Of a DNA stretch of 64,000 bases, positions 8,335-58,545 are shown in pieces; position 1 is the stretch's first letter; every line of letters begins with the position of its first letter. This DNA is from Eucalyptus grandis (taxonomy: Eukaryota; Streptophyta; Magnoliopsida; Myrtales; Myrtaceae). Position numbers and translations under genes: made by a program. Location: positions 2,118,001-2,182,000 of the forward strand of contig NC_052617.1 of assembly GCF_016545825.1 (NCBI RefSeq). Reading direction: 5' to 3'. The notes beneath the pieces were generated by a model, which ran no database searches, was not told the DNA's origin, and saw nothing but the letters and a program-made list of their open reading frames with translations.

Positions 8335-8339
8335 AAGAT

Positions 8340-12840: not shown

Positions 12841-12846
12841 TCCGAC

Positions 12847-15686: not shown

Positions 15687-15715
15687 CGATGAAGAGGCCA
15701 TCGGCAAGCTCAATG

Positions 15716-25572: not shown

Positions 25573-25812
25573 CAATGACCTACGCGGACAGCACGGACAG
25601 GTCGTGGCCGTCGTGGTTGACGGCCTGGTCGTGGTCAAAGAAGGACCAGACGACGGCCGGTACGTACTTAGGGGAGAGGACGTCGGCCAAGGTCATGTCG
25701 AGTGAGGCATGGATGAATCGCGCCCCAAGGCTGTTGGTGCAATCAACGAAGACGGTGTAGAACGGGGGTTCAGTCCGCTTGAGGGTGGCGAGGCGGCCAG
25801 TCAGGTGGTAGA
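25573..25812 (-). pseudogene. BAHD acyltransferase copy 1, middle piece
   Basis: Read on the minus strand, this continues BAHD copy 1 toward the N-terminus. It matches copy A over 32510-32750: the region with FIHAALDM-, FVDCANSPGA- and TLKRTDPPFYT-like wording. It is bounded by the Gypsy TSD CAATG on one side and the solo-LTR TSD GTAGA (25808-25812) on the other. Confidence 0.85.
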
Positions 25813-26916: not shown

Positions 26917-27180
26917 GTAGAAGTGGGCGAGTGTGGAAGAGAGAGATCGCTTGAGTTTGTCCAAGAAGGAATGGATGAAAGCGGGGCGGTCAAAGCCGGG
27001 GTCAAGGCAGCGAGGAGGGAGGGGGAAGAGGAGGCCCCTTTGGATGTAGTGGATGGGGAGCATGACGAGGTCCCATGGCGGCAAGTGGAGAGGGTGGTTC
27101 GACTGCGGGGGAAGCCGGTGTGGCTTGATGAAACAGTCGGAGATGAGCCGGATGGATGGAAGAGGAGGACGAGGAACCAT
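26917..27180 (-). pseudogene. BAHD acyltransferase copy 1, N-terminal piece with start codon
   Basis: From an ATG at 27178-27180 the minus strand encodes a typical start of this subgroup: RLISDCFIKP, then HLPPWDLVMLPIHYIQ and PRCLDPGFDRPAFI, ending in SSTLAHFY at the solo LTR. The first 85 or so codons are open and agree closely with copies A and C. They are now cut off from the catalytic half by about 13 kb of inserted DNA. Confidence 0.9.
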
Positions 27181-27780
27181 TGCGTGGGTTGCGTGTGTGT
27201 ACTGACGATGAATTGGTCTCGGCTCAAAGGCTGTGCACCTTCCCTTTAAAGACGAGGGGAGAGGATGGTCGGCGGTCGACATTTGAGATTGCGTCCCGCT
27301 AAGATGACCCTCCTCCGTAAGTAATGACAGTCAAACGTGGGCTACAAAAAGTTTTCGATGCAACCGGTCGACTTTCATTTTTCATTCAGACCGGCGAAAA
27401 AAGTACAGATTTCTAGAGAAGGAGGGCCTACTCCCTCTCTCTATCTCCAGCACGTCCCTACCGCGTCCACGTCCCCCTAAAACCCCCCGGGTGCCCGGTC
27501 CCCTCCGCCTCCGCCATCGAGTCCAGTGCCCCCATCGATGGCTATGAGTCATCAATAAACTCCTCTCACGTCTCTCTCGTGAGGAACCATCTCTATCAGT
27601 CTCGGCAACTGCAAGCTCGCCCCTGTCCACGCACTTGAATCGAAGTAGGGCGTCCTTCGGATTTTCACTCTTTATTTCATCTTAAATACACAAAAAAGAA
27701 AAAAAAAAGATTTGGTTTAGTTTACTTAAGCATTTCTATATCAAAAATAGCATTTGGCTACACCAAATCAAAAACAGTTA
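27181..27780. other. 5' flank of BAHD copy 1, nothing firm
   Basis: This is the upstream side of the minus-strand gene. I see no clear TATA element and no open frame with recognisable homology. The stretch at 27380-27630 is GC-rich and unassigned. Confidence 0.4.
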
Positions 27781-31560: not shown

Positions 31561-31621
31561 ACTCCCAATGCGTGTTGACTCGACTTGCGCATGACCGCCG
31601 TGTTGACTTTGGGCCTCCCAC

Positions 31622-33009
31622 CTACGAATCCGTCACGGCGGCCATGAATTCCGGGTCAACTTCGAGGAGTGCCATCGTCGTCGGCGGAAGGCAGATCTCG
31701 AGGTCGATGCTTCCGCCTCCTTCGTGGCCCGGATAGGCTGAGACCTTGCCGTCGAACTTGTTCGCATACCCACTTCGCAGAGCCACGGCCTTCCCCAGCC
31801 CGAACTCGTTGCCGTACTTGTCGAACCGTGGCGAGCTCCCCATCATGATGCTGTACTGATCGAACGTCTTGTCCAGGTGATAGACCTGTGGCCTCTTTAT
31901 CCAATCCTCGTTCCACTCCCTCAGCTTTGCGCTGCTGTGCTCCGCTACCGCCGTATGCAGCAGTCGCGCCGCCCACCCAAGACCGCTGCCCAGCAGCTCC
32001 CCACCTTCGCCGCCGTCCTCACTGGTGTGATTGAGTTTCCGAAGTACTCCGGCGAGAGAGGAGGGTCAAGCCTTGCCCGGTTGTTCGCAGCCATCCGGCA
32101 ACCTGTGACCTGGCTGGGCGGGAAGCGGCGGGCGCGCGCGATGCACCGCCATACAAGGGCAGTCAGGGACTGGAAGGATGAGATACTGGTGGTGCCGCAT
32201 TGCCGGTTTGCCTCCGCCTTGAGCCCCGCGATAGCGTCAGCTGAGAAATGGAAGACTCGTTCCCTGAGCTCGGGGGCTTCAAAGCGGGCGAGGAACGACG
32301 AGGGATCATCTGTGTAAGGCAGGCTTAAAGGGCCGGGATGGTTTTCCGGGAACCACCTGGTCAGGGCGGGTGGACGCGATAGCGGAACAACATCAACGGC
32401 GCCTTTCTCTTGCGCTTGGAAGATCTTGGACCACGAGTTGAAGAAGAGCCAGAAGGAGGTGCCGTCGCCGATGGTGTGGTTCATGGAGAGCCCAATGAAG
32501 ACACCATCAGCAAGCTCGGTGACCTGCACGGACAGCAGGGACAGGGTATGGCCATCGTGGTTGATCGCCCGGTCGTGGTCGAAGAAGGACTGGACGACAT
32601 CCGGGACGTAGGCCGGGGAGAGTATGTCGGCCGCGGTCATGTCGAGCGCGGCATGGATGAACCGGGCCCCAGGGCTGTTGGCGCAGTCAACGAAGACCGT
32701 GTAGAACGGGGGGTCGGTCCGCTTGAGGGTGGCGAGGCGGCCGGCGAGCGGGTAGAAGTGGAAGAGGGCGGAAGAGAGGGAGCGCTTGAGCTTCTCCAAG
32801 AAGGAACGGATGAAAGCGGGGCGGTCGAAGCCAGGGTCGAGGCAGCGAGGAGGGAGGGGGAAGAGGAGGCCCTTTTGGATGTAGTGGGCGGAGAGCATGG
32901 CGAGGTCCCACGGCGGCAAGTGAAGAGGACGGTTCCAGCCATCAGGAAGTTGGGGAGGTTTGACGAAGCAGTCGGAGATGAATCGGACGGATCGAGGAGG
33001 AGGAGTCAT
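31622..33009 (-). pseudogene. BAHD acyltransferase copy A, near-complete with one single-base frameshift
   Basis: This is the best-preserved copy: 1388 bases, about 462 codons, close to the usual 430-460 of the family, and intronless. It starts at 33009 with MTPPPRSVRFISDCF. HXXXD is present as NHTIGDGTSFW, its His near codon 177, and the DFGWG-type motif as NEFGLGKAVALRSG, near codon 400. Family enzymes use the His to deprotonate an acceptor OH or NH so that it attacks acyl-CoA. Around 31998 it has four C where copy B has five, which shifts the frame about 65 codons before the DFGWG-type motif. If that is a sequencing error the gene would be intact; otherwise it is a recent pseudogene. The subgroup resembles At3g50280/EPS1; substrate unknown. 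Confidence 0.88.
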
Positions 33010-34055
33010 TGCGAGGGTCGTGTTTGTTGAGACGCGGAAGATGATTGCGCTTATGACTCAGCCCTCACCTTGAAGAGGATGGTTGGTGTTATTTATTTAC
33101 ATGGGGATGCTGGAGCCGTGCAAATCGGTCTATGACTAGTGCACATGGAGTCGTTTGAAGTGGGGTAATGACGACTAGGATAGCATGTCTCTTTAGAATT
33201 TTTTTATTGGGTCAGATTAGAATGGAGCAACAACCCCCATCGGGTAACCCGAAAATCTGAAAATCAGATTGCTCCCACCAACTACCGGACTCTGACGAGT
33301 GCAGAAGCTGCTCTGCGTTTGACTAGTAGACGAGTCTGACTTTTCATCTTATTAGCAAAAGAAAGAAACTAAGGCCAGCTAATCTTCACATCCCTTGCTC
33401 CCCAAGCAATACTAGAGCCTTTTCATTCTCTCTCTCTCTCCCCCACGTTCTGATAAAATATTGAAAACGTTTCCTGCTTTGCTTAGACAACCTCGAATTC
33501 CACCCACACAACCCGCTCCTCTCGGCTTCCAATTGAACTGCCGCTTGTGCTCTGATCATAGCCAAAATGAGATGACAGTAAGGTAGTGCCACAGTTGAAA
33601 TTTGATGATCTTCTGCCGGGCATCGCATCTATCTTTTTGCACATTAGATTTGCATGATTTCATACCTTAGGGGAAGACACTCACCATGGTACTTGCTTAA
33701 ATGGAAAAAAAAAATTCAAAAAGGCTCCTAAAGGGAGGTTGATTTTTGTAAAAGAACCCTTGTAGTGATGCTTGTTTTAAAGAAGTCATGACCAGCAGAC
33801 AACATGTGCGTGTCATGTGCCATTATCCGTGCCATGGATAGGGGCATTTTGCCTCAAATCTTCTAATTTGACACAATAGCACAGGTCACTTACTTGCAAT
33901 TGAGTCAAAATAAATGGCCAAAGTGACCGAAAAAAAAGCTCCAAATTCCGCTTTTGATGAAAGATAGGGTTCTTCAAGTCGACATTAGCACAGCCAGCAT
34001 TATTCACTGCGATCGATTGCAATAATAGAATTTTATTTTTCGAATAAATCATTGT
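33010..34055. repeat. 5' flank of BAHD copy A, shared with copy C (57515-58545)
   Basis: The two flanks agree almost base for base with scattered small indels (for example a deletion near 57897 in the C flank). The conservation reflects recent duplication. Frames at 33386-33628 and 33813-34052 are short and unrecognised. Confidence 0.7.
33088..33101 (-). promoter_or_regulatory. Possible TATA-like element of BAHD copy A
   Basis: On the minus strand, gtaaataaataaca lies about 85 bases upstream of the ATG, a usual distance in plants. The same element is kept upstream of copy C near 57592-57606. Evidence is position and AT content only. Confidence 0.3.
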
Positions 34056-36320: not shown

Positions 36321-36800
36321 TCACTCTCCATAGACGTCAATAGAACTCCAGCAAAGCTCAAGCTTCGCCAAAGGAGCAGACTTAGTCATCATGTTTGATG
36401 GGTTATCTGCTGCAGTAATCTTTTTAACAGTAACAATACCCTTAGCTAAGACATCTTGGATGAAGTGGTACCTGATGTTAATATGCTTTGTTTGCTCATG
36501 ATAAACTGGATTATACGCCAAATATATTGCACATTGATTATCATAGTGTATATCCACACTTTTCTGTTCTAATTCAAAGTCCGAGAGCAAACTTTGTAAC
36601 GATATCGCCTCCTTCGCTACAAAAGTTAGTGCCATGTAATCAGCCTCAGTCGAAGACAAGGCAATGTGATCCTATAAGGATGCTTTCCAACTAATTGCAC
36701 CACCCACTAGCGTAAATACGTACCCTGCTAAAGACCTGCAATCATCCAAGTCACCGACGTGATTCGAATCCATAAAACCAGTGGTCTCATTGTCATTGTT
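36321..36800 (-). pseudogene. Copia RNase H
   Basis: On the minus strand, SSTEADYMALTFVAKEAI, then HYDNQCAIYLAYNPVYHEQTKHI and IVTVKKITAADNPSNMMTK are the standard motifs of Copia RNase H. Upstream, at about 36700-36800, the frame is broken by stops before it joins RT. Confidence 0.85.
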
Positions 36801-36806
36801 GTCCTT

Positions 36807-37690
36807 TCAATATACTATACCCACGTCTGTTGTCCCCTTCAAATATCTAAGGATCCACTTCACAGTTTCCCAATAAGTTTTATCATGACGCTTCATATAA
36901 CGACTAACCACGCTCACAGCTTTTGAAATATTAGTGTACACCATAGCATACATAATACTACCCACGACACTAGAATAAGGAGCACGGGACATATGCTCCT
37001 CCTCCTCCTCAATCTGCAGTGATAATTTATCTAAAAGTTTAAAGTATTTCGCTAAAAGTGTACTTACAAATTTCGCTGACTGCATGTTAAAACGTGTCAC
37101 TATCTTCTCAATATATTTCTTCTGAGATAGACATAAGACTCCTGCAGTCATGTCACGCAAAATCTCTATACCCAAAAAGAATTTTGCGGCACCTAAATCT
37201 TTCATTCCAAATTCAGCATTTAACTGCCTCTTTAGCACATCAATATCAGACATATTCTTAGCCACTATCAGCATATCATCAACATATAAGAGTAGATAAA
37301 TCAAAGAACCATTCTCCAATCTCCTATAGTAAACGCAGCTATCCATCTGACTCTTTCAATAGTTTTGACTAGCCATGAAAGTATCAAAACGTTTATACCG
37401 CTGCCTAGGAGACTATTTCAGCCCATACAAATATTTCTTTAACAAGCAAACATGATCTTCCTTACCCGGAATAGCAAATCCCTTTGATTGTCTCACGTAA
37501 ATCTGCTCTCCAACTCACCATGAAGAAACGCAATTTTCACATCTAACTGCTTTAACTCAAGATCCTGCGAAGCAACTAAGGCAAGTAAAACACGAATAGA
37601 AGTATGTCTTACCACAAGAGAGAACACCTCATTGTAGTCAATGCCCTCATGATGTGTATATCCCTTCGCCACAAGTCTCGCCTTATACAT
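36807..37690 (-). pseudogene. Copia reverse transcriptase in two frames
   Basis: The N-terminal part (37493-37690) reads YKARLVAKGYTHHEGIDYNE and QLDVKIAFLHGELE. The C-terminal part (36807-37346) has the catalytic YVDDMLIVAKN near 37270, then LSQKKYIEKI and VGSIMYAM. A frame break with stops lies between 37346 and 37493, so full RT cannot be made. Confidence 0.9.
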
Positions 37691-38096
37691 CGCTACCTCA
37701 ACACTAGGAATGCCCTCTTTTCGTTTGAAGACTCATCTACTTCCGACAATCTTTTGGCTCTTTGGTACTTTGACCAGCTCCCTTTCTGATTTTGATGGAG
37801 TGATTCCATTTCTTCACTCATAGCCCCTAGCCACTGCGATGACTCCGAATTAGCCATCGCCTCAAAGATGAAGGCTCATCTATCTCCACCTCATCACCTA
37901 CAGTCAATGCATAAGCAATATCTATATAACCATAACGTATTGGTGATTTAATTTGTCTTCTTTGTCAATCGGTGGCTATAGTGTGCTGTGACTTTGCTGG
38001 TTGTTCACTATCACCGACTTCAGGAACTGCAGCTTCATCTGCAGTCTCAACTTTTGTTATCTTCAAGGTCTCCGGAGTCTCCACTTGAAGCTCCAC

Positions 38097-39400
38097 CTAA
38101 CTAATGACACCATGATCTGTCTTCTTTGTTGACTGTGTCTCAGAACTCCTTTGTTGAATTATTGCAGTCCTGTCAAAGATCATATCTTTGCTTAATAGAA
38201 AATCGGGTGATGTAGGAACATTGTACCATAGTCGATAGCCTTTCACCCCATGTGCATAACCCAGAAATATGCACTTCTTCGCCTTTGACTCGAACTTACC
38301 ATCACTCACATGAGCATACGCAGGACATCCGAATATACGTAATCCGGAATAATCAACAGGTTTCCCCGACCATACTTCCTCAAGAGTCTTCCACTCGATA
38401 ACAGATGATGGAGATCGATTAACTAGGTAACATGACATGTTCACTACTTCAGCCCAAAATTCATTACCAAGTCCTGCATGCATCGAGCTCGCTCAAGCAA
38501 AGTTCTATTCTTCCGTTCTGCCACGCCATTCTGTTGTGGTGTCCCAAGTATTGTGCGGTGTCTCACAATACCTTCTTTCTCGCAGAACTTAGTAAAATCT
38601 TTACCACAAAACTCCATGCCATTATCGGTTCTCAAGCACTTGATTTGTTTATCCGACTGCTTCTCAATCAATGCTTTAAATTTCTTGAACTGATCAAACA
38701 TATCATATTTATGCTTCAGTAAGTATACACATACCTTCATCGAATAATCATCGATAAATGTCAACATATATTGGGCACCTCCTTTCGAAGGAACCGAATA
38801 CGGGCTCCAGACGTCTAAATGAATATATTCAACTGGTCGTTTGGTCGAATGAATAGCTATAGTAAACTTAACTCGGTGCTGCTTCCCATAGATGCAGTGT
38901 TCACATAAGTCAAGTTTTCCTGTTTTCTGACTACTCAACAACCCCATTTCACTCAGCATCGTCATACATGCTTCACTCATGTGCCCCAAACGCATATGCC
39001 ATAATTGAGTCAAGTTAGAGTCTGACTCACCTAATGAAGCTGTAGTGGTTCCGGTCACGGTCTCTTCTAGTAGATGATAGAGAGTATTCACTTTCTTTCC
39101 CTTCATCACTATCATAGCACTTCGAGAGATCTTCATTACTCCACCTTCAGCGGTGTACCAACACCCGATGTCATCAAGTGTCCCCAGAGAAATAAGGTTC
39201 TTCTTGAGTTCCAGTACATACCTTACATCTGTTACTGTGCGCACCACCCCATCGTGCATCCAAATCCGAATTGTTCCTATCCCCACAGCCTTACAAACTG
39301 CATTATTCCCTAAAAGAACTTTACCACCATCTGCAGTCTGGTAAGTAGTAAACCAGTTCTTATGAGGTATCAAATGATAAGAACACCCCCGAATCCAGTA
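38097..39400 (-). pseudogene. Copia protease end, GAG-pre-integrase and integrase
   Basis: The long frame 38444-39373 contains the Copia protease tail, the LWHMRLGHMSE...CEHCIYGKQHRVKF zinc-binding domain, and the integrase core residues in HLDVWSP, RTDNGMEF and QQNGVAERKNRTLLE. The next frame (38097-38483) continues as AELWAEA-like and GCPAYAHV wording of the integrase end. One frameshift near 38450-38480 separates them. The core catalytic residues are all present. Confidence 0.9.
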
Positions 39401-39464
39401 TCCATTCGTCTCTTAACGAAGTAGCAGTCACACATAAGACAACTTCTGCATCACTAGTGCTCCC

Positions 39465-40260
39465 CTAAACAACGTTTAGCATTCTGCTTATCAACTTTAT
39501 TTCTCCGCTTTGGACAATGTGCCCCTCCTCGTGACATTCAAAGCACTTCACGCGTCCTTTGGACTTTCTATGGCGTGATTTTGATCTGCTTTTACCTCTG
39601 TTGCTACTAGGCTCTCGATGTTGTTCTCTACCCCGAATCGTCAGTTCTTGCGCTGCTCCTTTCGCCAGACCATCATCTCGCAACTTTCTTTGCCATTCCT
39701 TAGAAAATAAGGCGGACTTTACCTCTTTTGAGGTAATAGTAGTACGCTCTTGCAACAGCAAATCAGTAAAGTGCTCACATGACTCTGGTAAAGAAGCTAA
39801 CAACATCATGCCCTGTTCTTCATCATCGAGTATCTTACCAACGTTCTTCAGATCCAACATGAGTTTATTAAATTCATCTAGGTAGGTTCTGATAGACGTA
39901 CCTTCAATATATCTAAATTGAAACATCTTTTTCAGCATGTACAAGCGATTGTTCAAACATTTCTTTACATAGAGTGCTTGAAGTTTTGCTCATAACGCTG
40001 CGACATCCTTCTCCTCAGCAACCTCTATTAAGACCTCATCCATCAAATTTAACAGGATTATGCTTTTTTGCTTTTTCCATCAACTCTACCCTCTCAGAGG
40101 CTTTCATTATAATCAGCAACTCATCTTCACCAATCAGTGCATTGATCAAACCTTGTGTTGTTAATAAAGCTCACATCTTTATGCTCCATAACACAAAATT
40201 GTTACTCCCGTCAAACTTCTCAATTTTAGATTTCTTCTCAGATATAATTGCAATAACAAA
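39465..40260 (-). pseudogene. Copia gag
   Basis: The frame 39465-39956 reads FRYIEGTSIRTYLDEFNKL, LLASLPESCEHF, then a basic stretch and CFECHEEGHIVQSG, a zinc knuckle whose last Cys is lost. An upstream piece at about 40040-40260 contains the gag start wording KIEKFDGSNNFVLW in a different frame. Gag forms the particle. Confidence 0.75.
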
Positions 40261-44830: not shown

Positions 44831-45840
44831 CATAACTAATAAACGGACATCTCTTGAGTTTTTGTTCTGCATCCGATTAGAGTATGAGTGTTTGAAGCTG
44901 ATTAAATTCTTGTGGTAAGAATTTTATATAATTTCTTTGTGAGATCGAGACATTATTTCGTAAAAATTATGAGAGTAAAACATCACGTGAGATATCGGAT
45001 GTGATTGGAGATTAGAAAACACTAGGAGCATTTAAGTGCTTGAGCGTAATTATAATCTTCATTGATTTGCTTGTTTTATAGTTGTGCTACTCTTCTTGTG
45101 GATATAGGTTACATTGACCGAATCATATAAATTTGGCATCTATTGTTGTCCACCTTTTGTCTGTTTTATTCGATCAATCGCTTCCACTCATAAAGCTTCG
45201 CATGAATGAAGAACCCAAGTGGATTCATCAAAACCTAACTTTCATTTGCATGGGCAAGTTCCTTCCCTGATAAGGAGACATTGAGAATTAATCCTTTTTT
45301 AAATTAGACTTTATGAAAGTTTATTTCTAAAGAAAAGAAGAGAATACTTGAGAATTTAAGATTTAAAAAAGACTTTACGGTTTATAACCGATATAATTTG
45401 CAAGAAGACTTAAAAGTGTGTGTGTGTGTGTTTTTTTTATGGAATTGGAAAGTACATTTTTGTAATAAAATAATTTAAATAGAAAGCCGTGTGTGTATCT
45501 TTCGGTATTACAGTAGCAAGCAAAAATGCGATAGAATCTTTCAATTTCGATACTCTATACCCGATATTTCGACTTCGGAATTTTTTTAATATTAGATTGG
45601 CCCACCATACAAGTTATCATGATGTTTTACTCTACGGTTTCTAACCAATAATAAGATTTGGCTGAGGATCAATTCAAACACAAAGCATAAAATAAAAGAA
45701 AAACCCATAATTTATCCACTACAGATTGAGAAATAAATCAACTTAATATAAAATTACAAGTCACACAACCGGTAATTTTTCATCCTGATAACTAATGGCT
45801 GTCGACTCGACCGGCACATAACCACCGTGCTGTGTTGTTC
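44830..45840. other. AT-rich intergenic DNA, nothing recognised
   Basis: No gene, RNA or defined element was found. A gtgtgtgtgtg microsatellite lies near 45417-45431. Confidence 0.4.
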
Positions 45841-45847
45841 CTCCGAC

Positions 45848-46874
45848 CTACAAATCCGTCACGGCAGCCATGAATTCAGCGTCAGCTTCGAGAGACGCCA
45901 TCGTGGCCGGCGAAAGGCAGATCTCGAGGTCGATGCTTCCGCCTCCCTCGCGGCCCGGATAGCTTGTGACCTTGCCGTCGGTCTTGTTGGCACACCCACT
46001 TCGCGGAGCCGCGGCCTTCCCCAGGATCCCCAGCCCGAAGTCGTTGCCATACATGTTGAACCGCGGCGAGCTCGACATGATGATGCTGCACGGACCCAAC
46101 GTCCGATCCAGGCGGTACACCTGCGGGCTCTTTATCCACTCCTCGTTCCACTCGAGCACCTTCGCGTTCCCGTGCTCCGCCACCAACGCATGCAGCAGCA
46201 GCGCCGCCCACCCAAGGCCGCCGCCTAGCAGCTCCCCCGCCGTCGTCGCCGCCCTCAACATCGTGACCGGGTTCCCGAAGTATTCCGGCGGGAGAGGGGG
46301 GGTCTAGCCTCGCCCGATTGTTCGAGATCACCCGGCAGCTTGTGACCTGGCTGGGCGGCAGGCAGCGAGCGCGCGTGATGCACCGCCATAGCAGGGCAGT
46401 CAGGGACTGGAAGGACGAGATCTTGGGGGTGCCGCATTGCCGGTTCGCCTCCGCCTTGAGACTCGCGATGGCGTCGGCGGAGAAGTGAAAGACTCGCTCC
46501 CTGAGATCCGGGACTCGGTAGCGGGGGTGGAACGACGAGGGGTCGTCCGCGGAAGGCAGGCTTACCGGGCCGGGGTGGTTCTCAGGGAACCAGCGGGTCA
46601 GGACTGGGGGACGCGATAGCTGGACGACATCGACGTCGCCTTTCTGTTGCGCTTGGAAGATCTCGGACCACGAGTTGAAAAAGAGCCAGAAGGAGGTGCC
46701 GTCGCCGATAGAGTGGTTCATGGAGAGCCCGATGAAGACGCCGTCAGCGAGCTCGGTGACCTGAGCGGACAGCAGGGACAGGGAGTGGCCGTCGTGGTTG
46801 ACCGCCCAGTTGTGGTCGAAGAAGGAATGGACGATGGACGGGACGTACGTCGGGGAGAGGATGTCGGCCACGGT
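45848..46874 (-). pseudogene. BAHD acyltransferase copy 3, C-terminal two thirds
   Basis: The minus strand encodes NHSIGDGTSFWLFFN (HXXXD, near 46700) and NDFGLGILGKAAAP (DFGWG-type, with a three-residue insertion ILG), ending MAAVTDL. A frame change at a seven-G run near 46297-46303 separates them. At 46874 the gene is cut by a Copia element. The rest of its N-terminal half resumes at 52014 and stops at 52147. Sequence is more distant from copies A, B and C than they are from each other. Confidence 0.9.
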
Positions 46875-47368
46875 TGTTGGTAATTTGTTTATAAAACAAA
46901 TGAAGAAGTGCCTTGTCCCACATCAAAAAGATGTGAGTGCCCACGTGGACGACATTTGGCACTAACCAACGATCATTATTTTTATTTATTGAAAATTCGG
47001 ATTTATTTCTTTAAAAAATTAATTATAAAGTCTTATTGAAACAATGCGACTATTCATGAAAAGTTACGATTATTTATTATTTATTATTTATTTAATTCCG
47101 AATTTTTTTGTCTTTTCAACGTAACATTTGAGACGTCTTGTTCATTTTACAACCTATCCCGAAAGGTTGTCTTTATTCTTTTGCAACATTTTGAAGAGTT
47201 GCCTCTATTCGAAAGACAAAGATAAGAAATTTGCCGGTGACCATTAAGCACGCGTTGTGGGGCAAATAAATCTTAAAAAAGTGATATCACGCTCAAAGTC
47301 CGACTTGAGTCATTTCAACGATCTGACTTCATTGTTTCTACCCAATACGAAGCCATATTTTACCAACA
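46875..47368 (+). repeat. 5' LTR of the chimeric Copia element
   Basis: The LTR is 494 bases, TG...CA, and differs from the 3' LTR (51519-52013) by roughly a dozen or so substitutions and single-base indels by eye, which suggests a fairly recent insertion. Confidence 0.88.
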
Positions 47369-47789
47369 ATTTTAAGGATTTATTTTTGCTACAATGAAGT
47401 CAGAGAATCAAAGTCATTACTCAAGACATGGTGATACTAAACTGGTTTGATGGCAACAATTTTACTTGTGTGATTTGATGCAATGCGGTGTGCGCTGATC
47501 ATTTGATGTTTCTTATGTTCCGATCCCTTATCATTTCTATTCTCATTCCAAGACTACGTTGATTGTTGTTCTTAGTTTTGCTCTGAATATATTCCCTGAA
47601 TCCTTTCGAGGAAGTTCTGTTTTGGGCTTGTGAGTGAACCATGCAAGAAATTGGGAGGATGAACTTCACGAATTTTCTTAAGTTTTAGATAGAAGTGGAA
47701 GGGAGTCAATGTGGTCCTGAAGGCATGTTCTTTCCTTTGGAGTTTACGTACTCTACGGCCCTTCTCCAAGCCGTAATCCGATGACCTGA

Positions 47790-48690
47790 AAGTTTCAAAT
47801 GAGTTGGTCCTTAAACTTCCGGTTCCCGAACATACGAAGCACTTCATCTTTGCTATGAGGGAACCCGAGTCGCAGTCTGTGATTTACATGCTCGCCATGC
47901 AGAATTTGTCTGGGATTCCTGCCCGGAACGCTATGTGTTTGATTAGAAGAGAGAAGGGAAACTACCAAACGGCTATAATTGACGTTACAAGTTCCATATC
48001 TTGCGGGGGCCCAGATCATCAAAATAAAATAAAAAATAAAAAATTCGCCTAGCAGAAGACAAGCGTCTATATTTGGCGTCCATGTCGTGGAACGTTGTCT
48101 TGAGGAAGCAGTTGAAACGAGTCCCTTGCCAATGCCGATTAGTAAATCTCGAGGCAACGGGTGGCCGTAAATCTCGAGGCAACGTTTGACCGTGGATAAA
48201 GATGCAAGAGGCCACGTTCGCCATTGCGCGATGCGAGCACCAGACGCATGCAAGTGGACAGGTTCTTTCACTTCCCAACAGGTCTGTTCCTCGATGGCTT
48301 CTAGTCGACGCCAACAATCATCACTCATCACCGTTGGCCAGAGTTTCAAGGAAGATCTACAGGCTCTCTCTCTCTCGCTATTTTTATTTTTTGTGTCCAT
48401 TTTGGTTCTGTCATAAGGGTGTGTTTTATGTCTTTTGTGTGCGCCCAATGCTATGCCATGTCTTGTCTCTGTATTTGATGTTTGGTTTGGGACTCAACAC
48501 TTACTAATCTTGACGGCATCTATTGTGATGGAGAAGACAAGAATGGTGGAATATTGAATTACAGCGTTAATTTCCCGGAGCAAAAGGTGATGAATGAGGC
48601 TCTTGCTCACGATGCGAAATCCATCATGGAAATATCATGCAAGATGGCATCTCATCTTATAAAAACGACTTCGAGGATGTCGAGACTCTG
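47790..48690 (+). pseudogene. Captured host-gene fragment(s), parent not recognised
   Basis: Open segments encode LKLPVPEHTKHFIFAMREPE and SQSVIYMLAMQNLSG (about 47810-47920), and later [20 protein letters not shown] and [17 protein letters not shown] (about 48545-48665). They look like parts of one conserved plant protein of unknown function, separated by intron-like DNA and stops. I cannot name the gene with confidence. No such segment belongs in a Copia element. Confidence 0.5.
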
Positions 48691-48970
48691 ATCATGAGAT
48701 CGAGTGCAAGATCTTTGTTCGGGAGGAGATTTAGCGATCCTTCAGTCCAGAGTAACATGAGGCATTGGCCGTCAAGGGTCATTGCTGGTCCCGGCCTCAA
48801 GCCCATGATTGTCGTCAATTTCAAGGTCGTAAAGAAGCAGTTTGCTGTGGAGGAAATTTCATCCACCCTCCTCACAAAGATGCGTGAGACCCTGCGGCTT
48901 ACCTTGATATGACTATCAAGAATGTGTTGTCCGGGTCCCTGCACACTTCAATAACTCGGTCTCGTCAAGG
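48691..48970 (+). pseudogene. HSP70 ATPase-domain fragment captured in the Copia element
   Basis: The frame encodes [43 protein letters not shown] and LTKMRET. These match in order the HSP70 nucleotide-binding domain (GRRFSD, the PMI segment, the EEISS helix). Past about 48895 the homology continues in other frames (MTIKNV, then a VPAHFN-like stretch), so small indels break it. About 90 of some 650 residues are kept. HSP70 is a cytosolic ATP-dependent chaperone; this piece cannot function as one. Confidence 0.85.
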
Positions 48971-49189
48971 GGCAGTTACATGATGGATTCATTTTTTTTT
49001 TATTTTTGAAGATGCCTTTTAATCTCTTTTCATGGGATTGGCATTTTGGATCCATATCAAGTAGAAGGTACTTTCGCAGGTATGGCCCAATTTTGATTTT
49101 TTATTTTTACCGCCTCGAGGAGTCACATTCTAGATTTGTCTAAATGGCTGCAAAATATGTGAACTCATGGGGATATTGTTTTAGTTATT

Positions 49190-49530
49190 AAAAAAATGAT
49201 TGAATTTGGAGACGGCAGTGTCGGAGAGATCAGGAATGTGGTGGACCATGCGAAGGAATTCATGAAAGGAGCGGCAGAGATGAGCGTGAAGTTGGCCAAG
49301 GGTTGTGGGGACATCGTGTGGCAAACTCTGGCAACGAGAACTCCTTCCTCCCCCAAGTACTTCGGGAGGGACTCGTACGTCATGGGCAGGCTCTAGGGGC
49401 CGTGCGTAAGGACGTTTACGAGATTGGAGCTCTAAGTGAGTACTTCTCGAGGACAAGAAGCCGATGCATGTCTGGTCGGCTGTGTCATTCATCTCTATCG
49501 TGGTCGCTGCAAGTTGGTTGGTGATTCTCT
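49190..49530 (+). pseudogene. Further captured exon-like fragment
   Basis: Open text with conserved-looking wording (IEFGDGSVGEIRNVVDHAKE, FMKGAAEMSVKLAKGCGDIV) continues in a second frame (49303-49524). It may derive from the same unknown gene as 47790-48690. A third open stretch at 49640-49843 is less convincing. Confidence 0.4.
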
Positions 49531-50279
49531 ATCTAAGTTCCTAGTTTGAGCGAGGAAATTATTTGATTGAGAAATGAATCATATCACATTCCGTGCATTG
49601 GTGTTGTTGACCCATTATGGAAAATTTTCTTTTTAACTATTGTTTGATCTTTCTGAGAATGAGAAATTGGAGAATTCGATTGACTGTTCTCTTAGTGATC
49701 TAAAATTCGTAAACATTTCTTTTGGTTTTTCTGTTGACGAATTTGGATACACACAATCGAAAGATCTTATTGAAATGATGAACCATCGTAATAATGGGGC
49801 AATCTTTCGTTCTACCGTCGGTTTGTCTTGGCGAAGCTATTGAAAAATTATTTGTTGTATGCTTCTGTTCTCACATGCTTTTGATTGTTAGGGATGGTGT
49901 ATAAATTGCTAGAATTTATCTATTTACTTATTTCCCATCCTTGTATGGATTTCTGTACTTGGTTTATTATTAATTGGATATGATGATGAAACATACGTTA
50001 TCATATTGGATGCCTCTTAAAATAGTCTTGAAGTGGGGATATTTGAAGGGGACTATGGAGCGAATGTGATTGGAGTCATTAAAAAAAATATATATATCTA
50101 ACTTTCATTTTAAATGAAAGATTTGAGTGAAGTAGATACCTTATTGGGTGTTAAAATTAAAAAAAAAATAGTGGGGTTATCCTTTGAGCCAAAGTGATTA
50201 CATGGAAAGGATGTTGAATAGATTTAAACATCTTGTTTTCAAATATATAAGTACTCCATTTGATTACTAGTGGAGAGTT

Positions 50280-50935
50280 TTTTAATGTGAGTGCTATGGG
50301 TCTTTAATGTATGCGATACATTATACTAGATCTGATATTACTTTTTATATATGCAAGTTGAGTAGATATACTAGTAATCCAATTATAGAACATTGAAAGG
50401 CTATTATTAGAATTTTTTGGTTATTTTAAAAGAACCTAAAATTTGTGATTGTTCTATAATAATTATTTGGTTATATTATAAAGATACACCGATACTAGTT
50501 GGATTACAAGTATGGGAGATGAAACTTCTAGATGGATTTTCACATTACGTGAATGTGTTGTTTCTTAGGCGAGCAAGAAACAAATGTGCATAATTCACTC
50601 AACTATGAAACTTGAATCATTGCTTAGTAGCAAGTGGGAAAGATATTGATGGATTAGGAATTTGTTGTTGAATATCAAATTATGGCCTAGTCCTATGCCT
50701 CTTATTTCTCTATCAACTGTGATAGTTAGGCTACTTTGGTAAGAGCATATAGTAGCACATATAATAGTAAGTCTAGACATACTAGTTTAAAGACATGAAT
50801 ATGTGAGACAATTGATTAAAGATGGTACCATAACAATTGTCTACGTGAGGTCAAGTAATAGTCTTGCCGATCCCTTGACAAAGGCTTTACCAAGAGATAT
50901 GGTAATAATGACCTCATAAGAAACGAGGCTGAAAC
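50280..50935 (+). pseudogene. Copia RT end and RNase H remnant
   Basis: Scattered frames give the late-RT wording VSAMGSLMYAI-TRSDI (about 50288-50330), SRYTSNP, and near 50850-50900 VRSSNSLADPLTKAL, the standard end of Copia RNase H. Stops and frameshifts are frequent. Confidence 0.75.
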
Positions 50936-51518
50936 CATTTAATTGAAATCACCAATAATGGTAACCCGACATTTTTCTAGAACATCACTAGTTATAAGGT
51001 TTAATGGGTAAGAACAAGTTATTGAATGTGATTGTTTGATATTGACGTAGCCCTGATATGAGAAGTCAGTATAGTCTGTTACGTTTTGTAGGTTGGATTG
51101 AATTCTTAATGAAGTATAGTACAAACTTATAATGTGTTGATAGTAACAGAAACACATAGTAGATACTTCACCTATATGAGCTTAGAAGTGGTGCCGCTTC
51201 TTACGAAAGTTAGGGTTGCTTTCTAGAGAGCTCATGAAACAGGATCAAGCACAAGGCCATAATAGTGCGGAGTAATATAGAACTTCTCGTTGAAACAAGA
51301 GGTTAGTGTATGTGTGGTATGTCTGGTTCTATTATATAAAAGTACAAGTTTAAAGCCGAGCTACTTGTCACTTTGATAGGGCTTTGAGATACTTATACTA
51401 AGTAAAGGTTTAACTCGAAAGAGACCTTTATGTATGTATATTAATCTCACGGAAATTTTGGCTGTATATTTCTAACATTTTATTTCTTGTTTTTGTTTTA
51501 TAAACAAAAGTGGGGGAT

Positions 51519-52013
51519 TGTTGGTAATTTGTTTATAAAACAAATGAAGATGTGCCTTGTCCCACATCAAAAAAGATGTGAGTGCGCACGTGACGAGATT
51601 TGGCACTAACCAACGATCATTATTTTTATTTATTGAAAATTCGGATTTATTTCTTTAAAAAATTAATTATAAAGTCTTATTGAAACAATGCGACTATTCA
51701 TGAAAAGTTACGATTATTTATTATTTATTATTTATTTAATTCCGAATTTTTATGTCTTTTCAACGTAACATTTGAGACGTGCTTGTTCATTTTACAACCT
51801 ATCCCGAAAGGTTGTCTTTATTCTTTTTGCAACATTTTGAAGAGTTGCCTCTATTCGAAAGACAAAGATAAGAAATTTGCCGGTAACCATTAGCAACGTT
51901 GTGGGGCAAATAAATCCTTAAAGAAAGTGATATCACGCCTCAAAGTCCGACTTAAGTACTCTAACGATCTGACTTCATTGTTCTACCCAATACGAAGCCA
52001 TATTTTACCAACA
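51519..52013 (+). repeat. 3' LTR of the chimeric Copia element
   Basis: The LTR is 495 bases and near-identical to the 5' LTR, preceded by the polypurine tract and followed by the TSD ACGGT. Confidence 0.88.
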
Positions 52014-52147
52014 ACGGTCATGTCAAGGAGCGCGGCGTGGATGAAGCGGGCACTGTGGCTGTCGGCGCGGTCGACGAAGACGGTGTGGAGGGGGGGGTCG
52101 ATCCGCTTGAGGGTGGCGAGGCGGCCGGCGAAAGCGGGTAGAAGTGG
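52014..52147 (-). pseudogene. BAHD copy 3, remaining N-terminal-side fragment
   Basis: This continues copy 3 from the Copia element with FIHAALLDM-like and TLKRIDPPLHT-like coding on the minus strand. It ends abruptly at ctagaagtgg-like sequence joined to the AT-rich element arm (gtttaatttttt). The first 80 or so codons of the gene are missing. The same join recurs at about 54756. Confidence 0.8.
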
Positions 52148-53460
52148 GTTTAATTTTTTATTTCTTTTAATTTTTTATTTCTTTTAATTTTTTAATACTT
52201 TTATTATATTTTTCTCTTTTTTCTTTTTCTTTTTCTTCTTCTTCCTTCTTCTTTATGGGCCGGTCGCTGGCCATCGAGTGAGGGCCAATGAGCTTGCTGG
52301 AGGCTCACTTGGCCACCATGAGGCTCCAGCTCACCCAAGCCACGCGAGGTCTGCTTCACTGTGGCTAGGAGAAAAGACAAGGAAATAGAAGAGAAAATAA
52401 AATATTAGACTTGATTCTAAGAATTATTCTTGGGAATAAAAACCAATTTTTTTCTATATATTGATTTTATTCCAAATCTATTCAAGAACAAAAAAAATGG
52501 ATTTTTATTTTGAGGAACAAGAAATTTACCAAACAGATTTCTGTTCTTTTCTTCTCCCCGAAAACAAAAGAACAAAATCAGTTATTTCCGAGCGTGTTAC
52601 CAAACAAGCCTTCAATCTCTTACGAAAGGCCGGTCACCTCACTTTTAGACTCTACATATTTTTGGTTTCACGCTCAATCCATAGCGTGACCAAAGAATCG
52701 ATAGGGATACGCGCATGATTCGATTGAATTTGTAATAGGGAAGTTTTCATCGCCGCGGGTGAGCAGAACGGGGTCCGGCCAAGGGGCACCTCTTCTCACC
52801 ACATGGATTTATCTATCCTAGGACTCCAGCGGAAGCATCAGCATAATCTGAAGAACCCAACACTAATAAAGCAGCCCTTCATTGAAGTTCTTTACTCTGG
52901 CCGTGACCCAATATGTTCAAAGATCAGTGTTTTATCTTCTGAGGAAAAACTTGTGTTTTATGTTTTCTTTTTATCTGGGCGGAATCCATCTTTGGTCCTC
53001 GTCAGTGGCATGGAGAGAACGCAGCTCTTGGCTCAAGTGAGCCCACTGTCTTAAAGCTTCAGACCTTTTCATACGAGACTTGCTCTTCTTTGGGAAATCA
53101 CACACGCTCAGTCCATGCCAAACCGTCGTCGTCGATCACCGGCAAACTCGAGCGATTGATGAAGAAATGACTGCCTTCGAATAAGAAAAGATGAATGGGA
53201 GAGTCAACTGGAGCAAGAGGGAAGAAGAAGAACCGAGAAAAAAAAAGGAGGAGAAAGCAAGTAAAAGACAACTTTGGATAAAATGCCAGTAACTTGAAAA
53301 GCGGCATAAGAAAAGGGCCACACTTCAGCTCTTACTTGGAATTTTCCCGGACCAAGCGTACATAGAATGTAAACTCATAATTTATTGGGTATTACGTTAA
53401 GAGATGAGTCAACTTAAAATTCGTAGTCAAATAACAAATCTTTATTCCTCCAAACTCCTA
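52148..53460. repeat. Unit B flank, copy of 30144-31560
   Basis: The same blocks as in unit A appear in the same order: the T-rich arm, the GC-rich core (shorter here), the A-rich arm and the unique-looking flank with the 83-codon stretch (52803-53054). It begins inside the transposon seen whole at 29995-30740. Confidence 0.75.
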
Positions 53461-53514
53461 ACGCGTGTTGACTCGACTTGCGCATGACCGCCGTGTTGAC
53501 TTTGGCCCTCCCAC

Positions 53515-54598
53515 CTACGAATCCGTCACGGCGGCCATGAATTCCGGGTCAGCTTCGAGAGTGCCATCGTCGTCGGCGGAAGGCAGATCTCGAGGTCGAT
53601 GCTTCCGCCTCCTTCGTGGCCCGGATAGGCTGAGACCTTGCCGTCGAACTTGTTCGCATACCCACTTCGCAGAGCCACGGCCTTCCCCAGCCCGAACTCG
53701 TTGCCGTACTTGTCGAACCGTGGCGAGCTCCCCATCATGATGCTGTACTGATCGAACGTCTTGTCCAGGTGGTACACCTGTGGCCTCTTTATCCAATCCT
53801 CGTTCCACTCCCTCAGCTTTGCGCTGCTGTGCTCCGCCACCGCCGTATGCAGCAGTCGCGCCGCCCACCCAAGACCGCTGCCCAGCAGCTCCCCCACCTT
53901 AGCCGCCGTCCTCACTGGTGTGATTGAGTTTCCGAAGTACTCCGGCGAGAGAGGAGGGTCAAGCCTGCCCGGTTGTTCGCAGCCATCCGGCAACCTGTGA
54001 CCTGGCTGGGCGGGAAGCGGCGGGCGCGCGCGATGCACCGCCATACAAGGGCAGTCAGGGACTGGAAGGATGAGATACTGGTGGTGCCGCATTGCCGGTT
54101 TGCCTCCGCCTTGAGCCCCGCGATAGCGTCAGCTGAGAAATGGAAGACTCGTTCCCTGAGCTCGGGAGCTTCAAAGCGGGCGAGTAACGACGAGGGATCA
54201 TCTGTGTAAGGCAGGCAAAAGGGCCGGGATGGTTTCCGGGAACCACCTGGTCAGGGCCGGGGACGCGATAGCGGAACAACATCAACGGCGCCTTTTTCTT
54301 GCGCTTGGAAGATCTTGGACCACGAGTTGAAGAAGAGCCAGAAGGAGGTGCCGTCGCCGATGGTGTGGTTCATGGAGAGCCCGATGAAGACACCATCGGC
54401 AAGCTCGGTGACCTGCACGGACAGCAGGGACAGGGTATGGCCATCGTGGTTGATCGCCCGGTCGTGGTCGAAGAAGGACTGGACGACATCTGGGACGTAG
54501 GTCGGGGAGAGTATGTCGGCCACGGTCATGTCGAGCGCGGCATGGATGAACCGGGCCCCAGGGCTGTTGGCGCAGTCAACGAAGACGGTGTAGAACGG
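53515..54598 (-). pseudogene. BAHD acyltransferase copy B, truncated by assembly gap
   Basis: The copy is nearly identical to copy A. HXXXD (NHTIGDGTSFW, near 54365) and NEFGLGKAVALRSG (near 53700) are present. Compared with copies A and C it lacks single bases near 53559, 53966, 54216, 54232 and 54254, so the frame breaks repeatedly and the C-terminus is changed. It has the five-C run near 53890 that copy A lacks. The N-terminal part would lie in the gap. Many breaks are in or near homopolymers, so base-calling error is a serious alternative to true decay. Confidence 0.88.
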
Positions 54599-54698
54599 NN
54601 NNNNNNNNNNNNNNNNNNNNNNNNNNNNNNNNNNNNNNNNNNNNNNNNNNNNNNNNNNNNNNNNNNNNNNNNNNNNNNNNNNNNNNNNNNNNNNNNNN
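54599..54698. other. Assembly gap of exactly 100 N
   Basis: The round length marks a gap of unknown size. It falls inside a BAHD gene. The two sides resume at nearly the same gene position but match different paralogues. Confidence 0.98.
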
Positions 54699-54756
54699 TG
54701 GAGGGGGGTCGATCTGTTTGAGGGTGGCGAGGCGGCCGGCGAGCGGGTAGAAGTGG
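54699..54756 (-). pseudogene. BAHD fragment right of the gap (copy-3-like)
   Basis: The wording tggaggggggtcgat matches copy 3 (52088-52103) rather than copies A or C, which read agaacggggggtcggt. It ends at the same junction with gtttaatttttt as at 52147. Confidence 0.75.
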
Positions 54757-56080
54757 GTTTAATTTTTTATTTCTTTTAATTTTTTATTTCTTTTAATTTT
54801 TAATACTTTTATTATATTTTTCTCTTTTTCTTTTTTCTTTTTCTTCTTCTTCCTTCTTCTTTATGGGCCGGTCGCTGGCCACCGAGTGAGGGCCAATGAG
54901 CTTGCTGGAGGCTCACCTGGCCACCATGAGGCTCCTCACCTAAGCCACGCGAGGTCACCCAAGCCACGCGAGGTCCGGCTTCACTGTGGCTATTGAGAGA
55001 AAAGACAAAGGAAAAGGAAAGAGAAGAGAAAATAAAAATTAGACTTGATTCTAAGAATTATTCTTGGGAATAAAACCAATTTTTTTCTATATATTGATTT
55101 TATTCCAAATCTATTCTGAAGAACAAAAAATGGATTTTTATTTTGAGGAACAAGAATTTACTTTATACTTCTCCCCAAAACAAAAGAACAAAATCAGTTA
55201 TTTCCGAGCGTGTTACCAAACAGGCCATAAATCTCTTACGAAAGGCCGGTCACCTCACTTTTAGACTCTACATATTTTTGGTTTCACGCTCAATCCATAG
55301 CGTGACCAAAGAATCGATAGGGATACGCGCATGATTCGATTGAATTTGTAATAGGGAAGTTTTCAATGCCGCGGGTGAGCAGAACGGGGTCCGGGCCAAG
55401 GGGCACCTCTTCTCACCACATGGATTTATCTATCCTAGGACTCCAGCGGAAGCATCAGCATAATCTGAAGAACTCCAACACTAATAAAGCAGCCCTTCAT
55501 TGAAGTTCTTTACTTGGCCGTGACCCAATATGTTCAAAGATCAGTGTTTTATCTTCTGAGGAAAAATTTTTATGTTTTCTTTTTATCTGGGCGGAATCCA
55601 TCTTTGGTCCTCGTCAGTGGCATGGAGAGAACGCAGCTCTTGGCTCAAGTGAGCCCACTGTCTTAAAGCTTCAGACCTTTTCATACGAGACTTGCTCTTC
55701 TTGGGAAATCACACACGCTCAGTCCATGCCAAACCGTCGTCGTCGATCACCGGCAAACTCGAGCGATTGATGAAGAAATGACTGCCTTCGAATAAGAAAA
55801 GATGAATGGGAGAGTCAACTGGAGCAAGAGGGAAGAAGAAGAACCGAGAAAAAAAAAAAAGGAGGAGAAAGCAAGTAAAAGACAACTTTGGATAAAATGC
55901 CAGTAACTTGAAAAGCGGCATAAGAAAGGGCCACACTTCAGCTCTTACTTGAAATTTTCCCGACCAAGCGTACATAGAATGTAAAACTCATAATTTATTG
56001 GGTATTACGTTAAGAGATGAGTCAACTTAAAATTCGTAGTCAAATAACAAATCTTTATTCCTCCTAACGCGTGTTGACTC
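54757..56080. repeat. Unit C flank, copy of 30144-31560 and 52148-53460
   Basis: The block repeats unit B with small deletions; for example the 83-codon stretch is broken near 55515 and 55567. No gene. Confidence 0.75.
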
Positions 56081-56120
56081 GACTTGCGCATGACGGCCGT
56101 GTTGACTTTGGCCCTCCCAC

Positions 56121-57514
56121 CTACGAATCCGTCACGGCGGCCATGAATTCCGGGTCAGCTTCGAGGAGTGCCATCGTCGTCGGCAGAAGGCAGATCTCGG
56201 GGTCGATGCTTCCGCCTCCTTCGTGGCCCGGATAGGCTGAGACCTTGCCGTCGAACTTGTTCGCATACCCACTTCGCAGAGCCACGGCCTTCCCCAGCCC
56301 GAACTCGTTGCCGTACTTGTCGAACCGTGGCGAGCTCCCCATCATGATGCTGTACTGATCGAACGTCTTGTCCAGGTGGTACACCTGTGGCCTTTATCCA
56401 ATCCTCGTTCCACTCCCTCAGCTTTGCGCTGCTGTGCTCCGCCACCGCCGTATGCAGCAGTCGCGCCGCCCACCCAAGACCGCTGCCCAGCAGCTCCCAC
56501 CTTAGCCGCCGTCCTCACTGGTGTGATTGAGTTTCCGAAGTACTCCGGCGAGAGAGGAGGGTCAAGCCTTGCCCGGTTGTTCGCAGCCATCCGGCAACCT
56601 GTGACCTGGCTGGGCGGGAAGCGGCGGGCGCGCGCGATGCACCGCCATACAAGGGCAGTCAGGGACTGGAAGGATGAGATACTGGTGGTGCCGCATTGCC
56701 GGTTTGCCTCCGCCTTGAGCCCCGCGATAGCGTCAGCTGAGAAATGGAAGACTCGTTCCCTGAGCTCGGGAGCTTCAAAGCGGGCGAGTAACGACGAGGG
56801 ATCATCTGTGTAAGGCAGGCTTAAAGGGCCGGGATGGTTTTCCGGGAACCACCTGGTCAGGGCCGGGGGACGCGATAGCGGAACAACATCAACGGCGCCT
56901 TTTTCTTGCGCTTGGAAGATCTTGGACCACGAGTTGAAGAAGAGCCAGAAGGAGGTGCCGTCGCCGATGGTGTGGTTCATGGAGAGCCGGATGAAGACCC
57001 CATCGGCAAGCTCGGTGACCTGCACGGACAGCAGGGACAGGGTATGGCCACCGTGTTTGATCGCCCGGTCGTGGTCGAAGAAGGACTGGACGACATCTGG
57101 GACGTAGGTCGGGAGAGTATGTCGGCCACGGTCATGTCGAGCGCGGCATGGATGAACCGGGCCCCAGGGCTGTTGGCGCAGTCAACGAAGACGGTGTAGA
57201 ACGGGGGGTCGGTCCGCTTGAGGGTGGCGAGGCGGCCGGCGAGCGGGTAGAAGTGGAAGAGGGCGGAAGAGAGAGAGCGCTTGAGCTTCTCCAAGAAGGA
57301 ACGGATGAAAGCGGGGCGGTCGAAGCCAGGGTCGAGGCAGCGAGGAGGGAGGGGAACAGGAGGCCCTTTGGATGTAGTGGACGGAGAGCATGGCGAGGTC
57401 CCACGGCGGCAAGTGGAGAGGACGGTTCCAGCCATCAGGAAGTTGGGGAGGTTTGACGAAGCAGTCGGAGATGAATCGGACGGATCGAGGAGGAGGAGGA
57501 GGAGGAGGAGTCAT
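56121..57514 (-). pseudogene. BAHD acyltransferase copy C, full span with several frameshifts
   Basis: The copy starts at 57514 (MTPPP... with a longer Pro run than copy A from a cct repeat) and ends at 56121 (FMAAVTDS), so the span matches a complete 460-residue BAHD protein. NHTIGDGTSFW (near 56965) and NEFGLGKAVALRSG (near 56300) are present. Indels relative to copy A or B near 56393 (2 bases), 56494 (2), 57112 (1) and 57353-57368 break the frame. The upstream GLS is changed to RLS before HXXXD. Dead if the sequence is right. Confidence 0.9.
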
Positions 57515-58545
57515 TGCGTGGGTCGTGTTTGTTGAGACTCGGAAGATGATTGCGCTTATGACTCGGCCCTCGCCTTGTAGAGGATGGTTGGTGTTATTTA
57601 TTTACATGGGGATGACGGAGCCGTGCAAATCGGTCGATGCCTAGTGCACACGGAGTCGTTTGACGTGGGGTAATGACGACTAGGATAGCATGTCTCTTAA
57701 GAATTTTTTATTGGGTCAGATTAGAATGGAGCAACAACCCCCATCGGGTAACCCGAAAATCTGAAAATCAGATTGCTCCCACCAACTACCGGACTCTGAC
57801 GGCTGCAGAAGCTGCTCTGCGTTTGACTAGTAGAAGAGTCTGACTTTTCATCTTATTAGCAAAAGAAAGAAACTAAGGCCAGCTAATCTTCACATCCTTT
57901 TCATTCTCTCTCTCTCTCTCTCTCCCCACGTTCTGATAAAATATTGAACACGTTTCCTGCTTTGCTTAGACAACCTCGAATTCCACCCACACAACCCGCT
58001 CCTCTCGGCTTCCAATTGAACTGCCGCTTGTGCTCTGATCATAGCCAAAATGAGATGACAGTAAGGTAGTCCCACAGTTGAAATTTGATGATCTTCTGCC
58101 GGGCATCGCATCTACCTTTTTGCACATTAGATTTGCATGATTTGGGAAGACACTCACCATGGTACTTGCTTAAATGGAAAAAAAAAAATTCAAAAAAGGC
58201 TCCTAAAGGGAGGTTGATTTTTGTAAAAGAACCCTTGTAGTGATGCTTGTTTTAAAGAAGTCATGACCAGCAGACAACATGTGCGTGTCACGTGCCATTA
58301 TCCGTGCCATGGATAGGGGCATTTTGCCTCAAATCTTCTAATTTGACACAATAGCACAGATCACTTACTTGCAATTGAGTCAAAATAAATGGCCAAAGTG
58401 ACCGAAAAAAAAGCTCCAAATTCCGCTTTTGATGAAAGATAGGGTTCTTCAAGTCGACATTAGCACAGCCAGCATTATTCACTGCGATCGATTGCAATAT
58501 TAGAATTTTATTTTTGGAATAAATCATTATCTAGAACGTTACAAA
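57515..58545. repeat. 5' flank of BAHD copy C, matching 33010-34055
   Basis: Near-identical to the flank of copy A, including the TATA-like gttatttattta element (plus-strand reading, 57592-57606). A 26-base deletion around 57897 and small indels distinguish it. Confidence 0.7.

Follow-up and report, generated by a model that had tools for sequence, protein, structure and literature searches.

Host-gene fragments shared among backbones of a probable non-autonomous Copia-type retrotransposon family in Eucalyptus grandis

Results

We analysed a 64-kb stretch of Eucalyptus grandis DNA (contig NC_052617.1, positions 2,118,001 to 2,182,000; hereafter the window), in which a Copia-type long terminal repeat (LTR) retrotransposon occupies positions 46875-52013. 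Plain coordinates are positions in the window; the copy found there is called WIN, stretches fetched from the genome carry L-numbers, and C1-C11 are the chromosome-size contigs. The two 495-bp LTRs of WIN (46875-47369 and 51519-52013; both + and with TG...CA ends) are 95.8% alike, with a Kimura two-parameter (K2P) distance of 0.029. Target site duplications (TSDs) of ACGGT lie at 46870-46874 and 52014-52018. A polypurine tract, AAAAGTGGGGGAT, lies at 51506-51518 (+) and is identical or almost so in the relatives read. A stretch of approximately 160 bp that most relatives read have in their LTRs is missing from both LTRs of WIN (at 47226 and 51872). The 5' LTR is followed at 47370-47480 (+) by a leader and, as judged by eye, a presumed remnant of the gag start, which relatives also keep after the LTR. 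The idea that the leader is an inverted LTR piece was dropped, since what matches is short and not in collinear order.

The element interrupts a BAHD acyltransferase gene on the reverse strand (45882-46869, continuing past 52018; PF02458, E 1.7e-25). Once joined, the flanks of WIN align across the insertion point, with small gaps only, to four BAHD relatives in the window, at identities of 85.2% (32063-32761), 84.7% (56559-57256), 84.2% (53956-54594) and 81.0% (25576-25798). In the two alignments printed across the insertion point, a single GCGGT or ACGGT is found and the element is absent. WIN is a clean insertion in this gene.

Little remains of the element's own coding region. A decayed remnant of the C-terminal part of Copia reverse transcriptase (RT) and of RNase H spans 50003-50930 (+). 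It was recognised from three tblastn pieces that lie collinear with a second Copia element of the window, one with RVT_2 (best E 0.002, weak alone owing to decay), and from a 3' backbone, common to relatives with other cargo, that begins at 50003-50008. The only match to an integrase open reading frame (ORF) has an E-value of 0.051 and falls within the hydrolase piece described below; the integrase region before RT has been taken over by cargo. Intact gag-pol is not present in WIN, so the element is not autonomous. An earlier note, made from the letters of this DNA, had described a Copia element with RNase H remnants, and the LTRs, TSD, polypurine tract, empty site and tblastn pieces bear this out.

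Between the leader and the RNase H remnant, WIN contains fragments of three host genes, each from a locus of its own and all in sense orientation; related genes lie on C1 (first gene) and C10 (HSP70 and hydrolase). The first, at 47692-47958 (+), comprises about 30 bp upstream of the start and codons 2 to about 76 of a PRUPE_2G167200-type gene, and 47721-47958 recurs in other elements. Positions 47723-47947 match residues 2-76 of Prunus PRUPE_2G167200 (65% over 75 aa, E 3e-23), the one homologue found in a protein search with this piece (72% over 63% of the query, E 2.8e-15). The parent at C1:755918 (L041) is 74% alike, and since the Prunus protein aligns there in one piece, no intron is seen. 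Pfam gave no family for the Prunus protein and no match for ORF 47777-48052; a TraB-like label is unsupported and is not used. Next come a short piece (47941-48002, +) with DNA matches to three places at C10:28.8 Mb (86-91%) and modules with no assigned gene (48056-48702, +), of which 48369-48711 also occurs in L028 without HSP70 and 48464-48675 is 74% alike to C1:3308186. An antisense open frame of 232 aa (47795-48493, -) also lies over the cargo and matches no family above the cut-off.

The second gene piece, at 48703-48957 (+; perhaps to 48985, by eye), is a fragment of the HSP70 ATPase domain from codon 72 onward, supported by Pfam (PF00012, E 2.4e-9), PDB (best chain, E 1.4e-14), tblastn (codons 72-133 at 48703-48888) and a DNA match to a C10 gene that reaches 48957. 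It begins at exon 2 and is joined to the module shared with L028 within the letters TGCAAGA (48705-48711). The third, at 49205-49536 (+), is a fragment of exon 1 of an alpha/beta-hydrolase gene with a broken frame. Protein searches with this piece found no homologue, and it was identified through the gene at C10:10669058, whose exon 1 matches 49205-49529 (57% over 75 aa) and whose downstream ORF matches Abhydrolase_1 (E 9.3e-10); DNA identity is 77% to this gene and 76% to its paralogue at C10:10734404. From a predicted donor onward, 49537-49818 (+) matches the start of intron 1 at the DNA level, with at least the last 210 bp lying past the gene's open frame. Since the exon 1 frame of the C10 gene ends about 70 bp after this donor and the next coding ORF is about 1 kb further on, WIN contains 210-280 bp from intron 1 (or from a short transcript that had not been spliced). 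The related HSP70 and hydrolase genes are both on C10, 10 Mb apart. All cargo frames in WIN are broken, and we claim no protein function for them.

The HSP70 match had been noticed in the earlier note and holds. What was taken there for one unknown plant gene is indeed host-gene sequence, but from two genes (PRUPE_2G167200-type and alpha/beta-hydrolase); likewise, the host genes in the element are unrelated, as proposed, but number three rather than two.

We searched the genome with 48000-50200, which gave 52 matches, and fetched 20 stretches; the best 40 of 254 candidates were scored, so copy numbers are lower bounds. The stretch is present at 94-96% on C11, C6, C2, C4 and C3, and partially elsewhere. 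At least six elements have LTRs and all three gene pieces: WIN, L009, L010, L011, L012 and L013 plus L014 (L013_14). They are spread over five chromosomes (two on C6 and one each on C11, C2, C4 and C3), and five of the six have perfect 5-bp TSDs. Ends were printed for nine elements, with a perfect 5-bp TSD in six (WIN, L010, L011, L012, L013_14 and L017); L016 agrees in 4 of 5 letters, L009 is mismatched, and the left end of L028 is not resolved. LTR K2P among the six three-piece elements ranges from 0.0077 (L012) to 0.046 (L013_14). Independent insertions with their own TSDs, together with this spread of LTR divergence, indicate that the chimeric element is mobile and has moved at different times. 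The cargo moved along with the element and is not a late insertion in WIN. The earlier note would have been contradicted by the lack of a second cargo copy together with evidence of late insertion, and the result went in its favour.

Some copies have been invaded in turn. The C3 copy has a further element, whose terminal repeats are 95.9% alike, inserted near its cargo/pol boundary (L013 5388 to L014 4393). The C1 copy L020/L021 contains two nested elements (2517-7131 and 7540-17083), one in the HSP70 piece and one in the hydrolase piece.

Comparison of the six three-piece copies revealed different patterns in cargo and backbone. Over the 15 pairs, five cargo segments differ by 0.5-4.0%. In contrast, the segment POLb (50401-50930) differs by 1.9% between WIN and L010, by 2.8% between L011 and L013, and by 9.4-16.4% in the remaining 13 of 15 pairs. 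The U3 side of the LTR parallels POLb (3.2%, 6.1% and otherwise 7.4-14.6%), and BLAST identities agree with the pairwise divergences of the segments. The POLb tree (18 rows) places L012 with L029 and L031 (support 100/100), L009 with L015 (100/99), WIN with L010 (100/99) and L011 with L013_14 (100/100), while in the hydrolase tree (9 rows) L012 joins L010 (89/87) and WIN. L029 and L031, the POLb neighbours of L012, carry other genes. In approximately unbiased (AU) tests, with groups named after the trees were seen, the six copies as one POLb clade were rejected (p 1.05e-57). Grouping L012 with WIN and L010 was rejected for POLb (p 3.9e-37) but not for the hydrolase cargo (p 0.50). One cargo thus sits on at least four backbones, and the combination of like cargo, POLb divergence and AU rejection indicates that cargo has been moved between backbones.

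Sister elements hold further gene pieces. L017 and L023 have the first-gene and HSP70 pieces, but the place of the hydrolase piece is taken by a piece of a CSB/ERCC6-like helicase (PF00271, E 1.4e-8; ERCC-6, E 7.4e-14; 86% to C11:42402137) and, after it, part of a C9 gene. An O-fucosyltransferase (O-FucT) piece (PF10250, E 2.1e-10) is found in L028, and both L029 and L031 contain parts of two other genes, one on C8 (Nucleotid_trans, PF03407, E 5.7e-5) and one on C11 (92-96%). L016, L019 and L020/21 combine HSP70 with hydrolase pieces but lack the first-gene piece, and L042 and L043, with the same LTR type, have the first-gene piece in a different setting. Counted by parent locus or Pfam, the sampled elements contain eight genes: PRUPE_2G167200-type, HSP70, hydrolase, CSB-like, C9, C8, C11 and O-FucT. 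The C9 and C11 sources, each showing an intron, are presumed to be genes. Pfam gave no match for the L016 pieces; a presumed RING-E3 identity for one of them is not counted. L028 also has a 187-aa open frame (3331-3891, +) between LTR and O-FucT piece, which matches nothing in Pfam and may be another captured gene. Some pol-type ORFs occur in L030.

Several of these pieces lack introns of their source genes. The C8 piece of L031 is without a 116-bp GT-AG intron, its C11 piece is without about 1.1 kb whose boundary is at most 1 nt from GT-AG, and the C9 piece of L017 is without an 82-bp GT-AG intron. In L016 (two copies), L019 and L020_21, HSP70 exon 1 runs directly into exon 2, and the 586-bp intron that separates them in the C10 gene is missing. 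These exon joins indicate capture via RNA in the sister elements. On intron retention, a point raised by the earlier note, the answer is mixed: the hydrolase piece enters intron 1, HSP70 is spliced in sisters and starts at exon 2 in WIN, and no intron is visible in the PRUPE_2G167200-type parent.

Among the intact HSP70 genes found, the C10 gene, which has an intron, comes closest (77-84%). We checked six exon-join matches outside the elements for an intronless parent. One, L049 (C6:51.87 Mb), is an intact intronless gene but more distant (66-71%), and in the other five, L045-L048 (72.7-76.6%) and L057 (67-91%), all reading frames are interrupted by stops. We therefore reject an intronless HSP70 parent for the spliced pieces, although the exclusion is incomplete for the matches left out of this check (C8:67.80 and 67.95 Mb, 86 and 85%; C6:51.88 Mb, 69%; C10:37.85 Mb, 67%). 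L057 looks like a further element copy. The pieces in L045-L048 (C3:57.17, C10:32.2, C4:24.7 and C8:63.55 Mb) resemble each other and are possibly another captured or processed HSP70 lineage.

By eye, the letters TGTTC and AGAGTAA are common to WIN, L016, L019 and L027 and differ from both C10 HSP70 genes, which points to one HSP70 capture for these four; the HSP70 of L020_21, without those letters, may be a separate capture. L055 has the flanks of L031 with 33 bp where L031 has the 350-bp C8 piece, with AT and ATTTTG shared at the joins, and represents the state before C8 capture.

Other features of the window include a tandem array of BAHD acyltransferase-like copies that are 61-99% alike (12834-13736, 25576-27330, 31609-33057, 45835-52150, 53501-54759 and 56108-57601), at least one of which is broken by the Copia element. 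A second Copia element of another lineage (36324-39989, -) has gag, integrase and RVT_2 ORFs, and an ORF with RVT_1 and RNase H (1668-3200, +) probably belongs to a Gypsy-type element. The segments 16195-18116 and 23201-25075 form a direct duplication with about 7-kb spacing, 94-100% alike in the families listed. A viral contig scan gave no result.

Discussion

The central observation of the earlier note is confirmed and its interpretation is supported; what it understated is that the cargo recombines between backbones and that sister elements hold further genes. Our data show independent insertions with one and the same cargo, backbones that are mosaic, and spliced joins in sister elements. 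Very likely, these stem from a Copia family that is non-autonomous, acquires host RNA through template switching and trades the pieces from one backbone to another; this would be capture of the kind known from Bs1, extended to several genes and to recombination. Such a family would persist without gag-pol on its conserved ends, namely LTR and leader on one side and the 3' backbone from about 50003 plus LTR on the other. Reverse transcription would take place in a particle that a helper element provides. Where a few letters are shared, the enzyme would leave its template for host mRNA or pre-mRNA packaged in the same particle and then return, so leaving gene pieces inside the element. Later switches between co-packaged elements would build cassettes (PRUPE_2G167200-type, HSP70 and hydrolase), and the same switches would move a whole cassette from backbone to backbone. 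Co-packaging, helper supply in trans and template switching as the joining step are what we infer; switching, to host RNA and then between elements, would account for spliced and unspliced pieces, their internal position, and one cargo on several backbones.

A different origin of the gene pieces would be a DNA transposon inserted into a normal Copia copy that had already landed. Pack-MULEs and Helitrons often carry gene pieces, according to the portion of the literature consulted (PMC13317346), and intron sequence is kept in the hydrolase piece. However, the same cargo occurs in six insertions with their own LTRs, five with perfect TSDs, and the cargo of sister elements is spliced. Moreover, none of the 18 listed inverted-repeat pairs brackets 47480-50003 (Helitron ends were not searched with a dedicated tool). 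The repeat pairs, the six insertions and the TSDs contradict a late insertion of this kind, which we regard as highly improbable. Capture at the DNA level, in which repair of a broken element or ectopic recombination joined genomic gene pieces, would likewise explain the intron part within the hydrolase piece, but not the loss of two introns in L031 and one in L017, nor the HSP70 exon join; we consider it unlikely.

It is similarly doubtful that a single capture gave rise to all copies, with backbone differences due to unequal mutation rates or to cargo gene conversion after insertion. Gene conversion between dispersed repeats is known in general and could likewise have made the cargo alike. 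In addition, L009-L015 (98/95) and L011-L013_14 (85/90) are paired in cargo and POLb trees alike, as expected from a single capture. Yet cargo divergence is about that expected from post-insertion time (LTR K2P 0.008-0.046), with coding, intron and unassigned parts alike, and POLb falls into four types, one of them common to elements of other cargo.

Apart from these tree pairs and gene conversion, several observations weigh against exchange and RNA capture as we propose them. Divergence is only 2.1-7.0% in the segment after pol (50931-51518) and 1.5-8.3% in POLa (49991-50400), and the grouping given by the U5 side of the LTR departs from the four POLb types; these patterns make one backbone swap per copy too simple an account. 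The HSP70 splice is visible in sister elements and not in WIN, while the intron sequence of the hydrolase piece implies that its source was unspliced RNA or DNA. The letters shared at joins (TGCAAGA; AT; ATTTTG) are short, and chance is possible. By eye, no standard primer binding site (PBS) of the TGGTATCAGAGC type follows the 5' LTR in the nine readable rows of ten (the L013_14 row was not located); the leader is conserved. It should also be noted that a helper with intact gag-pol was not identified among the elements studied.

The nearest known system is maize Bs1, described in the consulted parts of two accounts as an LTR element containing pieces of three host genes (PMC13317346; PMC5408686). 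WIN is likewise an LTR element with three host-gene pieces. Unlike Bs1, the family here is of Copia type, with at least six copies of one three-gene cargo, at least four backbones, and sisters with further genes. Furthermore, we claim no chimeric protein, since the frames are broken and the cargo is known from DNA alone. A maize survey, in the sections consulted, counts 425 intact LTR elements with gene fragments (36 of them Copia), which go back to at least 189 captures; under its conditions, none combined fragments of two or more standard nuclear genes (PMC2774510). Host gene fragments within a full-length element are common to that survey and to WIN, which differs in holding three genes. 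In rice and sorghum, 672 and 1343 captured genes are reported (PMC3726574), amplified with the element as here; the consulted part of that account does not describe a shift of cargo between backbones, as seen here, or mention the word 'intron'.

Related joining processes are also on record. In LTR-mediated retroposition, mRNA is joined to element cDNA by template switching at microsimilarities (PMC5408686, citing Tan et al. 2016, from the section consulted). Joins at short similarities are found here too, while our cargo was later amplified and recombined as a cassette. BARE-2 and Veju are presented, in the portion consulted, as chimeras made by abnormal template switching (PMC13317346). Element recombination yields new families in both settings, but the part exchanged here is host-gene cargo. 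Our literature search covered open-licence papers, available in part, and found no Eucalyptus case and no HSP70 capture in Copia, which does not prove that none exists.

In the literature as consulted, an LTR element that contains several genes is a rarity, with Bs1 as a case and none in the maize survey (PMC2774510). On balance, we lean towards regarding this lineage as a standing system for shuffling gene fragments, in which constant ends are kept, pieces of host RNA (some spliced, from at least eight genes in the sampled elements) are taken up repeatedly, cassettes are exchanged among backbones, and new multi-gene chimeras arise and spread. Since states that precede and follow a capture, donors of spliced pieces (92-96% identity) and a cargo present on more than one backbone all occur in a single genome, the steps of RNA-level capture and exon shuffling by LTR elements become directly datable and testable.

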